From Bacillota bacterium (lineage in GTDB: Bacteria; Bacillota; Dehalobacteriia; UBA4068): a stretch of DNA of 32,754 nt. How positions within the stretch are numbered: position 1 is the first letter of the stretch; each line of letters begins with the position of its first letter. The notes below the pieces were generated by a model. It did no database searches. It saw only the letters and a list, made by a program, of their open reading frames with translations, and had not been told where the DNA came from. Below are positions 1,938 to 20,554 of the stretch, in pieces. Made by a program: the position numbers and the translations under genes. The stretch spans positions 1-32,754 of the forward strand of contig JAFXLH010000060.1 in NCBI GenBank assembly GCA_017531315.1, read 5' to 3'.

Positions 1938-2230
1938 TGTCATGTCATACCAGTTAAAACATGGTATAACATGCGTTTTGCATCTGTGCCACCACGCCGC
2001 GTAAACCGCGGCGCCTGAAACATCTTACCCTAATTGAATAAGATGTCACAATGGGCAGTTCTTAACAAGAACCGTGACCGATATCGGTCTGTGAAACCGT
2101 GTGCTGCGGCGGCATCGCTTTTTGATGCGGCTTGTCATAAAACTCTTTGCGGGGGCGGCGGTTAGTCCAGTGTGGGTTCGCGCAGAGCTTATTAGCTTAC
2201 GCGGTCTTTTGCCGCAAAGGGGGATGCAAA
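1938..2230 (+). promoter_or_regulatory. Long structured 5' leader of potA (candidate regulatory RNA)
   Basis: About 290 nt without a convincing gene. Hairpins by eye: 1947-1952/1962-1967; 1995-2001/2007-2013 (7 bp, loop TAAAC); 2020-2027/2039-2046 (8 bp); 2058-2063/2067-2072 (6 bp); 2076-2089 (perfect 14-nt palindrome); 2112-2116/2124-2128. A long-range 10-bp helix can form between 2143-2152 and 2212-2221. The latter segment includes CCGCAAAGGGG, so this helix covers part of the potA Shine-Dalgarno sequence. Inside it lies another nested hairpin (CGCG, AGCT, TATT, AGCT, CGCG elements). I matched no riboswitch consensus known to me (TPP, FMN, SAM, lysine, glycine, ykkC, T-box). A regulatory role is inference. 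Confidence 0.5.
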
Positions 2231-3358
2231 ATGTCTGAAATCAAGAATATTATCGAACTTAAAGACATCTGTATGGAATTCGACGGGGAGATGGTGCTGG
2301 ACCATCTGAACCTGGCGATCAAAGACGGCGAATTCGTCACGCTGCTGGGCCGTTCCGGCTGCGGCAAAACGACGACGCTGCGTATCATCGCCGGCTTTTT
2401 GAACCCGGTTTCCGGTCAGGTGCTGTTTGATTCGAAAGAAATCAATGGTGTTCCGCCGTATCAGAGACCGGTGAACACCATTTTTCAGCGTTATGCGCTG
2501 TTTCCGCACTACAACGTGTACGAAAACATCGCTTTTGGCCTGCGCCTGCGTAAAGTGCCGGAAGCGGAGATCAAAGAGCGCGTAGAAGAGATGCTGCGCT
2601 TCGTCAACCTGCAGGGCTTCGAAAAGCGCAGCGTCACCCACCTTTCCGGCGGTCAGCAGCAGCGTGTGGCCATCGCCCGCGCCGTCATCAATAAGCCGAA
2701 GGTGCTGCTGTTGGATGAGCCGCTTTCCGCGCTGGATCTGCAGCTGCGCAAAGACATGCAGGTGGAACTGAAAAATATCCAGAAGAAGCTGGGCATCACC
2801 TTCATCTACGTCACCCACGATCAGGAAGAGGCACTCTCTATGTCTGATACCGTGGTGGTGATGAATGAGGGCAAGGTGCAGCAGATCGGCACTCCCATCG
2901 AGATCTACAATGAGCCGCAGAACGCTTTCGTGGCGGACTTCATCGGCGAATCCAATATCCTGGATGGCGTGATGCCCTGCGACTTTACCGCCCGCTTTGC
3001 CGGTCACGACTTCGACTGCCTGGACAAGGGCTTTGCGCCCAATGAGCCGGTGGACGTGGTAGTGCGCCCGGAAGACGTGGATATCGTGCCGGTGGTTCGG
3101 GGCATGCTGAAGGGTGAGGTCACTTCCGTCACTTTCCGCGGCGTGCATTTTGAGATCATCGTCGATATCGACGGCTTCAAGTGGATGATCCAGACCACCG
3201 ACGAACACCATGTGGGCGATGTGGTGGGCCTGTATATCGAGCCCGACGCCATCCACGTAATGAAAAAATCCCAGTACTCCGGTAAATACGGCGATTACAG
3301 CTCTTACAGTGATGAGCTGGAGCAGCTCAGCGAGCTTACGGAGGACGAGGAAGAATGA
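2231..3358 (+). CDS. potA: Spermidine/putrescine ABC transporter ATPase PotA
   Basis: A 375-residue ATPase that powers polyamine uptake with PotB/PotC. Motifs in order: Walker [10 protein letters not shown] (40-48), Q-loop in [12 protein letters not shown] (Q86), signature LSGGQQQR (138-145), Walker B VLLLDEP (158-164), switch His in VTHDQEEA (H196). A C-terminal TOBE-like domain (from about 285) contains [10 protein letters not shown]. Start 2231 follows AAAGGGGG at good spacing; the frame can be extended to 2147, but those residues fall in the structured leader and look non-coding. Its stop overlaps the potB start by 4 bp (ATGA), so the two are translationally coupled. Substrate comes from family and operon context; related importers for other polyamine-like compounds cannot be excluded. 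Confidence 0.92.
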
Positions 3359-4188
3359 AACAAAGACGTTCCTACGCTCAGGTACTGATCAATGCTCCGT
3401 ACTTGCTGTGGGCAGCGATCTTTATTCTGGTGCCGCTGTTCATCGTGGCCTATTATGCCTTCACCGATGCGAGTGGCGCCTTTACCATGGCCAATATCAA
3501 AGAGCTGGCCAATTATAAGCAGACCTTCTGGATCTCGATCAAATATGCCCTCATCGCCACCGCCATCACCTTTGTCATCGCTTATCCGTTTGCCTACTTT
3601 ATGAGCAAAAAGAGCGCGGCCAAGCAGCAGATGATGATGCTGCTGGTGATGCTGCCGATGTGGATGAACCTGCTGATCCGCACTTATTCGTGGATGAATA
3701 TCCTCGAGCGCAACGGTATCATCAACAATCTGCTGGGCATGATGGGCCTTGGCCCGTGGAAGATGATCGGCACCGCCGGTGCGGTCATCCTCGGTATGGT
3801 CTACAACTATCTGCCTTATATGATCTTGCCCATTTACACTATCATGAGCAAGATCGACAATTCGCTGCTGGAGGCGGCGGATGATCTGGGCGCACATTCC
3901 TTTGCCAAATTGCGCCATATTATCTGGCCGCTGTCGCTGCCCGGGGTTATCTCCGGCATCGCTATGGTCTTTGTGCCCTCTATCAGCACCTTCTATATTT
4001 CGCAAAAGCTCGGCGGCGGCAAGATCATGCTGATCGGCGATACCATCGAGCGACAGATACAGACGGCCTATAACTACAACTTAGGCGCGGCGATCTCGCT
4101 GGTACTGATGGTATTCGTGCTGATCTCGATGGCCGTGATGAACCGCTTTGCCGATGATGACGGGGAAGGAGGCGGGATGATCGTATGA
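3355..4188 (+). CDS. potB: Spermidine/putrescine ABC transporter permease PotB
   Basis: A 277-residue membrane subunit with about six helices. It forms the translocation pore with PotC and docks on PotA. The EAA coupling loop is visible around residues 172-198 ([10 protein letters not shown]...[15 protein letters not shown]), as expected for binding-protein-dependent permeases. The first helix (about 13-35) follows a short basic N-terminus. It starts in a 4-bp overlap with potA and ends in a 4-bp overlap with potC, so the three are translated as one coupled unit. Confidence 0.92.
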
Positions 4189-4994
4189 ACAAATTTTTCG
4201 ATCGCTTCCTCACCGCGGCGGTATATGTATTCCTCTATGCGCCGCTGCTGGTCATGGTCTTCTTTTCTTTCAACGAAGGCCGCAGCACCTCGGTTTTCAC
4301 CGGCTTTTCCCTGCGCTGGTATGCGGAGCTGTTTTCCAGCAGCGATACTATTACCGCGCTGAAGAATACGCTTGTGCTGGCGCTGCTTTCTGCCACTATC
4401 GCTACCGTGCTGGGTACGATGGCGGCGGTGGGCATCGACGGTATGCGTAATAAGTGGCTGAACAGCGCGGTGATGACCACCACCAATATCCCGATGATGA
4501 ATCCGGATATCGTGACCGGCGTATCGCTGATGCTGCTGTTCGTCTTCGTCGGCCGCCTGATGGGCCTGGCTACCTCGCTGAGCTTCATTACGCTGCTGAT
4601 CGCCCACGTCACCTTCAACCTGCCGTATGTCATCCTGAACGTGATGCCGAAGCTGAGGCAGGTAGACCGGCGCTTGCCGGAGGCGGCGATGGATCTGGGC
4701 TGCACGCCGCGGCAGGCCTTCTTCAAGGTGGTGCTGCCGTCGATCCGCAGCGGCGTACTGGCTGCTTTCCTGATGGCCTTTACGCTGTCGCTGGATGACT
4801 TTGTCATCAGCTATTACACCAACGGCTCCGGCTTCCAGACCCTGCCGCTGATGATCTTCTCTATGACCAAAAAGACGGTCAAACCCGATATGTACGCGCT
4901 TTCCAGCGTTATCTTTATCACCATTCTGCTGCTGCTGATCCTGGTCAATGTATTGCAGGCCAGATCGGAGCGGGACGCGAAAGGAGCAAAATAA
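4185..4994 (+). CDS. potC: Spermidine/putrescine ABC transporter permease PotC
   Basis: A 269-residue second permease of the polyamine importer, with about six membrane helices. The EAA loop lies around 160-188 (RRLPEAAMDLGCTPRQAF...VLPSIRSG). The conserved PotC segment SLDDFVISYYTNG follows in the next helix. It overlaps potB by ATGA and is followed after 3 nt by potD, so it belongs to the same transcript. A short charged C-terminal tail (ARSERDAKGAK) ends the protein. Confidence 0.92.
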   Translation: MNKFFDRFLTAAVYVFLYAPLLVMVFFSFNEGRSTSVFTGFSLRWYAELFSSSDTITALKNTLVLALLSATIATVLGTMAAVGIDGMRNKWLNSAVMTTTNIPMMNPDIVTGVSLMLLFVFVGRLMGLATSLSFITLLIAHVTFNLPYVILNVMPKLRQVDRRLPEAAMDLGCTPRQAFFKVVLPSIRSGVLAAFLMAFTLSLDDFVISYYTNGSGFQTLPLMIFSMTKKTVKPDMYALSSVIFITILLLLILVNVLQARSERDAKGAK

Positions 4995-4997
4995 TTG

Positions 4998-6110
4998 ATG
5001 AAAAAAGTTTTGGCTTTAATGCTGATCTGTGTAATGCTGCTGTGCTGTGCTTGCGGCGGCGAAAAAGTTTCCGTAGAAGATCTGGAGCTGACCGGCACCT
5101 ATACCAAGGATCTGGCCGGCACTACGCTCAATGTGTTTAACTGGGGCGAATATATCTCCGACGGCAGCGAAGGTTCTTTGGACGTAAATGCTCTGTTTGA
5201 AGAATTGACCGGCATCAAGGTCAACTACACCACGTATGACAGCAACGAAGCGATGTACGGCAAAATGGCCGGCGGCGCCGTGGCTTATGACGTGATCATC
5301 CCCTCCGATTATATGATCGCCCGCATGATCGGCGAAGATATGCTGCAGCCCATCGATATTTCCAAGATCGATAACTATGGCAATATCGACCCCGCTTATC
5401 ACGGCCAGTATTTCGACCCGGAAGATCAGTATTCCGTGCCCTATACCGTGGGCATGGTCGGTCTCATCTACAACACCGAACTGGTGGAAGAAGCGCCTAC
5501 CAGCTGGTCTGCCATGTGGGACGAACGCTATGCCGATGATATCCTCACCTTCAACAATCCGCGCGATGCTTTCGCCATCGCTCAGTTCCTGATCGGCGTC
5601 AGCCTCAACACTACCGACCTGACCGAGTGGGACGCCGCTGCCGCCAAGCTGAAAGAGCAGGCTCCGCTGCTGCAGGGCCGCGTGATGGACGAAGTCTTCA
5701 ACAAGATGGAAGGCGGCAATGCCGCGCTGGCACCCTATTATGCCGGCGACTTCCTCACCATGTATGATGTGAACGAAGACCTGGCCTTTGTCTACCCGGC
5801 AGAGGGTACCAATATCTTCGTCGATTCCATGTGCATCCCCGCCAATGCGCAGAACTATGAAGCCGCGCTGATGTACATCAACTTCATGCTGGAAAAGGAA
5901 ATCGCCACCGCCGTAGCCGAATACATCTGCTACGCTTCTCCCAACCTGGCTGTACGCAATAACCCCGACTACAGCCTCGCTGACAGCGAGGTGCTCTATC
6001 CCGCCGCAGAAGATATGCCGCATACCGAATACTTCCACGATCTTGACCCCGCCGTACGCAGCTACTATGAAAAGCTGTGGGAAGAGATCCTGCGCGAATT
6101 TGCTCAGTAA
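4998..6110 (+). CDS. potD: Polyamine-binding lipoprotein PotD
   Basis: A 370-residue extracytoplasmic receptor that captures spermidine/putrescine. It has a lipoprotein signal: MKK, a hydrophobic core, and a Cys-rich end (CCACGG) with C19 as the likely lipidated residue. The mature part shows the PotD hallmarks NVFNWGEYISDGS, the YDVIIPSDYMIARM segment and YTVGMVGLIYNT, and has the usual family length. A TTG codon directly before ATG 4998 is an alternative start better spaced from the GGAG site (8 versus 11 nt). Last gene of potABCD; a strong terminator follows. Confidence 0.92.
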   Translation: MKKVLALMLICVMLLCCACGGEKVSVEDLELTGTYTKDLAGTTLNVFNWGEYISDGSEGSLDVNALFEELTGIKVNYTTYDSNEAMYGKMAGGAVAYDVIIPSDYMIARMIGEDMLQPIDISKIDNYGNIDPAYHGQYFDPEDQYSVPYTVGMVGLIYNTELVEEAPTSWSAMWDERYADDILTFNNPRDAFAIAQFLIGVSLNTTDLTEWDAAAAKLKEQAPLLQGRVMDEVFNKMEGGNAALAPYYAGDFLTMYDVNEDLAFVYPAEGTNIFVDSMCIPANAQNYEAALMYINFMLEKEIATAVAEYICYASPNLAVRNNPDYSLADSEVLYPAAEDMPHTEYFHDLDPAVRSYYEKLWEEILREFAQ

Positions 6111-19714: not shown

Positions 19715-19734
19715 AGTTGCATCTTCATATCGGA

Positions 19735-19856
19735 GATCTTTGGGGCGGGGTGCGATTCCCCACCGGCGGTATGGCGGTTTTCCGCTAAAGCCCGCGAGCG
19801 CAAGCTGATTCGGTGAGATTCCGAAGCCGACGGTATAGTCCGGATGAGAAAAGATC
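19735..19856 (+). promoter_or_regulatory. FMN riboswitch (RFN element) aptamer
   Basis: The RFN consensus blocks occur in order: closing stem GATCTT (19735-19740) with AAGATC (19851-19856); GGGGCGGGGTGCGATTCCCC; ACCGGCGGT; AAAGCCCGCGAGC; CGGTGAGATTCCG; GCCGACGGTATAGTCCGGATGAGA. FMN binding normally switches off the downstream riboflavin gene, here ribU. Confidence 0.97.
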
Positions 19857-19895
19857 AGGCAAGGCGGGGAGCAGTGTCTCCCGGCGGCTTGTCTG

Positions 19896-19939: not shown

Positions 19940-20554
19940 ATGCAAAACAAGACCAAGCGATTGGTATTGATGGCGATGCTCACCGCCATCTCGGTAGTAT
20001 TGGTGCTGCTGATCCGTCTGCCGCTGTTTCCCGCCGCGCCGTATCTGGAATACGATATGGCGGATGTGCCGGTGCTGCTGGCCTCTTTCGTGCTGGGGCC
20101 GGGCGCGGGGCTGGCGGTGCTGGTGGCGGCCTCGGCCATACAGGCCTTTATGCTGGGCGGGAATGGCATCATCGGCTTTATCATGCACGTATGTGCATCC
20201 GGTGCGCTGGTGCTGCTGGCGCCGCTGATCTGGCGGGCGGGCGGCCGGACGCTGCCGGCGCTGATCGGCGGGCTGGCTGTTGGCACCTGTGCCATGGCGC
20301 TGCTGATGCTGCCCTTGAACTTCATCTTCACGCCGGTGCTGTTTTTCGGCGTGCCGATAGCGGAGTCTTTCGGCATCTTCATCAGCGGCGGGGCAGGGGA
20401 GTTTTCTGCCGATGCGGTGGCGGCCTACGGTATGGTGCGCGGCCTGCTGTGGGTGGTGCTGCTGCCCTTCAATCTGGTGAAGGCGGGGCTGAACAGCGTG
20501 ATCTTCTTCGTGCTGTTCCGTGCGCTGCGCCCGGCACTCAAGCAGTATATGTGA
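19940..20554 (+). CDS. ribU: Riboflavin ECF transporter S-component RibU
   Basis: A 204-residue membrane protein with about six helices and the normal RibU length. It binds riboflavin and docks on the shared ECF module (EcfT/EcfA), which is not in this window. The N-terminal RLVLMAMLTAISVVL helix and the segment LEYDMADVPVLLASFVLGPG are typical of RibU. GGAGG lies 9 nt before ATG 19940. The FMN riboswitch directly upstream settles the substrate with good confidence. It is a single-gene unit ended by a terminator. Confidence 0.95.
   Translation: MQNKTKRLVLMAMLTAISVVLVLLIRLPLFPAAPYLEYDMADVPVLLASFVLGPGAGLAVLVAASAIQAFMLGGNGIIGFIMHVCASGALVLLAPLIWRAGGRTLPALIGGLAVGTCAMALLMLPLNFIFTPVLFFGVPIAESFGIFISGGAGEFSADAVAAYGMVRGLLWVVLLPFNLVKAGLNSVIFFVLFRALRPALKQYM

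Follow-up and report, generated by a model that had tools for sequence, protein, structure and literature searches.

A conserved pseudoknotted leader RNA before potABCD in gut Clostridia, a candidate polyamine-responsive regulator of potA translation

Comparison of related leaders showed that the potABCD operon of the window (the whole stretch of 32,754 nucleotides analysed here) is preceded by a real and conserved RNA with a pseudoknotted structure. We propose that it is an undescribed cis-regulatory RNA controlling translation of potA, probably a riboswitch switched off by polyamines (probability about 0.58). A bolder reading, to which we would give even odds, is that it represents a second natural class of polyamine riboswitch, unrelated to SAM-I, acting as a translational OFF switch and dedicated to PotABCD in Oscillospirales-type gut bacteria. 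RNA sensing of polyamines in bacteria was long a matter of dispute, given that polyamines adhere to RNA of any kind, and only one class is well supported (PMC10853860). The potA leader was found in about 80 genomes, compared to 13 examples reported for the spermidine riboswitch derived from SAM-I (PMC10853860). Its occurrence only before an importer, its well-supported pseudoknot and its obvious output on the Shine-Dalgarno (SD) sequence make the question of polyamine sensing directly testable, and it may shed light on the way in which Clostridia of the rumen and gut regulate the uptake of host- and diet-derived polyamines.

The leader region covers the 405 nt between the mntP stop codon at 1825 and the potA ATG at 2231, on the forward strand. 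A strong promoter had been proposed about 290 nt before potA in a preliminary description of this DNA. A near-consensus site (TAGACA-17-TATAAT, extended TG, 11 of 12 consensus matches) indeed lies at 1903-1931, so that the transcript should start near 1937, some 293 nt 5′ of the ATG; three promoter-like sites were counted across the stretch, for 0.5 expected. By eye, TTGAC..TATA-like boxes also stand shortly 5′ of the P1 sequence GCATC (see below) in many relatives. The product of potA (2231-3358), the ATP-binding subunit of a polyamine ABC transporter, scored above the cut-offs of two curated families, NF043075 (550.5 bits, cut-off 550) and TIGR01187 (366.1, cut-off 355.6). For the products of potB (from 3355), potC (from 4185) and potD (from 4998 or an upstream TTG), all on the forward strand within 3355-6110, the best NCBIfam names were PotB, PotC-like permease and PotD, with scores below equivalog cut-offs. 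The closest solved structure to PotD was 4eqb, a spermidine/putrescine-binding protein (E 1.3e-66). Judged by these matches, PotA and PotD look like polyamine-transport proteins. Elsewhere in the window, an FMN riboswitch is present at 19732-19859 (forward strand; RF00050, 114 bits), followed by an ORF (19940-20554) whose product resembles a riboflavin transporter of the RibU type.

The RNA from 1938 to 2260 folded with an MFE of -114.1 kcal/mol, against -95.1 +/- 5.4 for shuffled sequences (z -3.5), and it contains several hairpins in series, as already described. A helix of 10 bp had been noted over the potA SD (AAGGGGG, 2217-2223, 7 nt before the ATG). This helix, Pa, formed by 2143-2152 (CTCTTTGCGG) and 2212-2221 (CCGCAAAGGG), is exact and present in the MFE structure, and 98.9% of its cells were paired across 46 homologous sequences. 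It had also been thought to close a nested hairpin domain. Here the helix stood while the simple nesting did not, as Pa is crossed by two further helices, Pz and Px. The 5′ strand of Pz (2047-2056) pairs with 2165-2174 (GTCCAGTGTG) at 9 of 10 positions, and that of Px (AACCGT, 2095-2100) pairs with 2158-2163 (GCGGTT). The 3′ strand of Pz follows directly on that of Px, so that the two share a continuous 3′ strand and together make one long interrupted stem. Because Pa begins inside the loop closed by this stem and ends outside it, the arrangement is an H-type pseudoknot. The whole domain is enclosed by helix P1, between 1976-1985 (TTTTGCATCT) and 2222-2231 (GGATGCAAAA). Its 3′ strand runs from the end of the SD to the A of the start codon and masks the remainder of the ribosome-binding site, a point missed in the preliminary description; jointly, the 3′ strands of Pa, which covers most of the SD, and of P1 cover 2217-2223 entirely and reach the start codon.

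From 5′ to 3′, the conserved order of elements is P1 5′, Pz 5′, Px 5′, the P2 hairpin, Pa 5′, Px 3′, Pz 3′, the Pc hairpin, Pa 3′ and P1 3′. In the compact subgroups B and C, the 5′ strands of Pz and Px lie within a few nucleotides of each other. A compact form of the RNA, in L121 (2325-2491), measures 167 nt. In subgroup A, to which the window belongs, two hairpins are inserted between these strands. The one at 2058-2072 (GTTCTTAACAAGAAC) is conserved within subgroup A only (outer pairs 97.8% paired, inner two 79.5%); the other, GACCG-ATAT-CGGTC at 2076-2089, is a variable subgroup A feature (86.9% paired, all 5 pairs changed on both sides). P2 (2112-2128, placed by eye) varies in length and sequence, and was only 55.7% paired in the subgroup A alignment due to its variable loop length. 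The Pc hairpin (2179-2203, CGCG-CAG-AGCT..AGCT-TA-CGCG) has a conserved CAG bulge, and its outer part was 97.8% paired; its inner stem, like P2, was poorly aligned among the 23 leaders used below. Between Pz and Pc runs a joining segment of conserved sequence, GGGTT (2174-2178; GGGTAT in group B), whose first position also closes Pz and which is possibly an element of a binding site. The conserved unpaired segments are AANAA before Pa, GGG after Pz and the CAG bulge in Pc. A 5′ hairpin predicted in the MFE structure before P1 (CATGTCATACC..GGTATAACATG, 1941-1973) is absent from relatives, and therefore lies outside the conserved core.

Support for these helices came from a sequence-only alignment of 23 subgroup A leaders, scored with the structure as written from the window. 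In total, 90.0% of cells were paired, and 25 pairs had changed on both sides (16.4 +/- 1.6 in shuffles). Doubly changed cells numbered 103, compared to 36.7 +/- 4.5 in shuffles and 17 to 42 in slid controls, and the covariation score was 0.248, compared to 0.135 and at most 0.090 respectively; kinship among leaders inflates the shuffle-based counts, against which the slid controls and the diversity of helix sequences protect better. Changes on both sides were seen at 7 of the 9 Pz pairs and at all 6 Px pairs, the latter being 97.1% paired. A swap test was also applied, in which the strand of a leader is exchanged for those of other leaders to see if pairing with that leader's upstream region gets worse. 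For Px, 71 leaders gave z -7.4 (0 of 20000 permutations), and for Pz, z was -9.9 in groups B and C (24 leaders) and -7.9 in subgroup A (32 leaders). Directed at a wrong partner region, the test returned z -0.2, which means that it is able to fail. When Px strands were anchored by their conserved neighbours, some of these anchors being placed by eye, 150 of 156 cells (96.2%) were paired in 26 distinct subgroup A sequences, for a shuffled mean of 115 (about 74%) and none of 20000 shuffles as high. Two candidate arrangements were discarded. By analogy with subgroup B, the Pz partner in subgroup A was sought next to P1 (z -0.17); the true partner is further 3′. The nested structure of the core proposed by RNAalifold misses the crossing helices.

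Pa is nearly invariant in subgroup A. Across the 46 sequences, three of its pairs compensate in L147, L151, L165 and L170, where CUUUGC is replaced by CUUUGU with its partner changed; CTTTGCGG/CCGCAAAG becomes CTTTGTC/GACAAAG and CTTTGTTCA/TGAACAAAG in relatives. Such changes, in a helix paired at 98.9%, exclude a chance helix. A check of related potA leaders by covariance had been put forward in the preliminary description, and it yielded compensatory changes in Pa, Px and Pz. Against the transcript start near 2200 that had been raised there as an objection speak the near-consensus promoter at 1903-1931 and the conserved P1 5′ strand at 1976. In P1, 10 of 10 pairs were kept in all 23 group A leaders and GCAUC/GAUGC is invariant, so that P1 offers no covariation within this subgroup; the same sequence recurs outside A, in B, C and some of D, and most leaders of every group have it, and ACAGC/GUUGU in L051 and L053 looks compensatory by eye. 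Also by eye, a UGUG beside P1 may pair with the Pc bulge (CGCAGA), with CUUG/CAAG at these places in L151 and a hint of the same contact in CUGUGC/GCACAG of L146 and L156, a possible tertiary contact.

The leader DNA matched potA leaders in 3 other genomes of the window's family. A scan with PotA returned 80 loci from Oscillospiraceae, Ruminococcaceae and Clostridia MAGs, mostly of ruminant guts. About 20 of these have the RNA domain directly before potA, while about 60, in the same order, do without it, which means that the RNA is not essential to the transporter. Genome searches with covariance models R1 and R2 then revealed it in one order (26 carriers among 394 genomes), in the class of that order (9 among 391) and in another family (34 among 295); the class to which the window belongs had no more than 4 carriers in 43 genomes. 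Carriers amount to about 80 other genomes, with 71 distinct cores, and the structure is conserved across genera. In every strong match with readable context the downstream gene was potA, whose product is 61-82% identical to the PotA of the window. Five weak matches (L127, L128, L149, L150 and L152; E 0.001-0.01) were not before potA and were judged to be due to chance.

In a PotA tree, RNA-bearing proteins of all four subgroups were placed along the backbone, and a well-supported clade of 49 proteins and one of 10 were without the RNA; this was a quick FastTree run in which deep supports vary. The simplest reading of the tree would be one ancestral RNA followed by losses, or by divergence beyond detection. 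Leaders examined in the clade of 49 are short. As to polyamine metabolism, in 12 carrier genomes with incomplete assemblies, spermidine synthase (PF01564) was unmatched in 9 and nspC was above the cut-off in none. This pattern fits reliance on uptake and would make import important, insofar as incomplete assemblies allow.

The leader had been presented as belonging to no described class, and it was likewise foreign to Rfam 15 (4227 families), where neither it nor its counterparts in 14 homologous loci gave a match at gathering or permissive thresholds, the only hit among those loci being an unrelated tRNA in L166. The SAM model gave nothing over positions 1850-2300 of the window, even with E allowed up to 10, and the four-stem fold of SAM-I is not seen. 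The T-box model did not match either, the likeness of GGGUAUCGCG to a T-box sequence being superficial only. In the literature, potA goes unmentioned in the main texts of three papers on genome-wide RNA discovery (PMC6429828, PMC8632094, PMC11109978). As far as main texts go, the class is likely to be undescribed, with priority probable. The one spermidine riboswitch with good support is a SAM-I variant with a four-stem fold, known from 13 representatives located before biosynthesis genes and acting by transcription termination (PMC10853860). Both would exert polyamine-responsive OFF control on polyamine genes of Gram-positive bacteria, but the potA leader is pseudoknotted, precedes potA, masks the SD and does not match SAM-I. 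The potC RNA motif (RF01751), listed as marine only (PMC2864571), resembles it in the name of a polyamine transporter gene, but the Rfam scan gave no match of the leader to this motif. The potE motif WRC-18-1 is likewise a putative leader RNA, lying before a gene for polyamine transport; in the main text of its description, it is confined to Veillonella, about 200 nt from potE, with weak covariation and, according to its authors, no expression platform (PMC8632094).

The output of the leader was explored with ViennaRNA, in which pseudoknot energies are outside the model and forcing Pz and Px excludes Pa. The calculated mean probability that the SD is unpaired was 0.00 with Pa and P1 formed, and 0.74 with Pz and Px but no Pa. 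These two states were only about 3 kcal/mol apart in this nested model (-114.1 and -110.8), and Pz formed unprompted when the 5′ strand of Pa was forbidden to pair. The RNA, then, has two near-equal nested states in the model and, beyond it, a full pseudoknot combining both, from which we infer that any factor favouring the pseudoknot would shut translation. The leader thus joins two traits of riboswitches, a conserved and structured 5′ domain with covarying helices and, by calculation, an expression platform that hides or exposes the SD. Its predicted fold can sequester the potA ribosome-binding site, and translational control is very likely. PreQ1-I, preQ1-II and SAM-II riboswitches act on translation through an H-type pseudoknot in which the SD region forms part of the second helix. 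The potA leader has this logic in common with them, but their aptamers are much smaller, with unrelated sequence and helices, and the leader has no Rfam match.

Since copies of the element were seen nowhere but in front of a polyamine importer, the ligand is most likely a polyamine and the sign most likely OFF. In this scheme a small molecule, in all likelihood spermidine or one of the other polyamines, would bind the conserved joining segments and the Pc bulge, the unpaired AANAA, GGG and CAG being natural candidates for the binding site. Binding would stabilise the full pseudoknot, with Pa and P1 closed, so that ribosomes could not start and polyamine uptake would fall. When the ligand is absent, Pz and Px would be formed but Pa open part of the time, the SD exposed and the importer made. 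The net effect would be that of a translational OFF riboswitch exerting feedback on polyamine import. With a single gene context, the ligand hangs on one association, which would also suit Mg2+, a different cation or a protein. One context demonstrates association rather than ligand, and polyamines overlap in function with Mg2+, so the same pseudoknotted translational switch might respond to Mg2+, another cation or a growth-linked metabolite, potABCD being one output. We find this unlikely, as the search of ~1,200 genomes revealed no copy ahead of a transporter for Mg2+ or another cation, and potA follows the RNA wherever a copy was inspected.

An mRNA leader that is large, conserved and structured can equally be a site for a protein, and autogenous control would agree with the exclusive association with a single operon. 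Pa might then be stabilised by a transporter subunit, or by an autoregulator resembling a ribosomal protein, with no small-molecule ligand. This appears improbable, since conserved unpaired segments in a compact pseudoknot are rather a mark of aptamers for small ligands, and an NCBIfam search recognised no RNA-binding family in PotA, PotB, PotC or PotD. Less probable still is a device working without ligand, such as an RNA thermometer or a constitutive damper on translation: the MFE structure does mask both the SD and the start codon, but crossing long helices, conserved joining segments and an invariant Pa core exceed the needs of a thermometer, and the named hosts are mostly gut bacteria, living at a steady temperature. 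Hardly any credit is left for conservation at the DNA level, an unrecognised ORF upstream or an N-terminal extension of PotA, with no RNA element at all. A TTG at 2147 does open in frame with potA, but by eye this frame is closed by a TGA in L041, which rejects the extension, and compensatory changes across distant strands, which need RNA pairing, refute the non-RNA reading as a whole. The polyamine-responsive OFF switch keeps our preference.

Several individual leaders depart from the common plan. In L209 (1590-1859), the RNA and potA are about 250 nt apart, and the SD masked by the RNA is no longer the one adjacent to the gene, possibly as a result of decay or insertion. In L049 (2305-2507), the loop that joins Pc to the 3′ strand of Pa contains a GC-rich insert of about 95 nt. 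Genome G053 has two potA leaders of different sequence, L054 and L151, and thus either two operons or a mixed bin. Finally, many subgroup A leaders, L157, L196 and L202 among them, have after P1 a 5′ hairpin, absent in the window, with the loop GCAAAGG; this loop copies the SD-containing strand of Pa and could pair with the Pa 5′ strand, which would free the SD.
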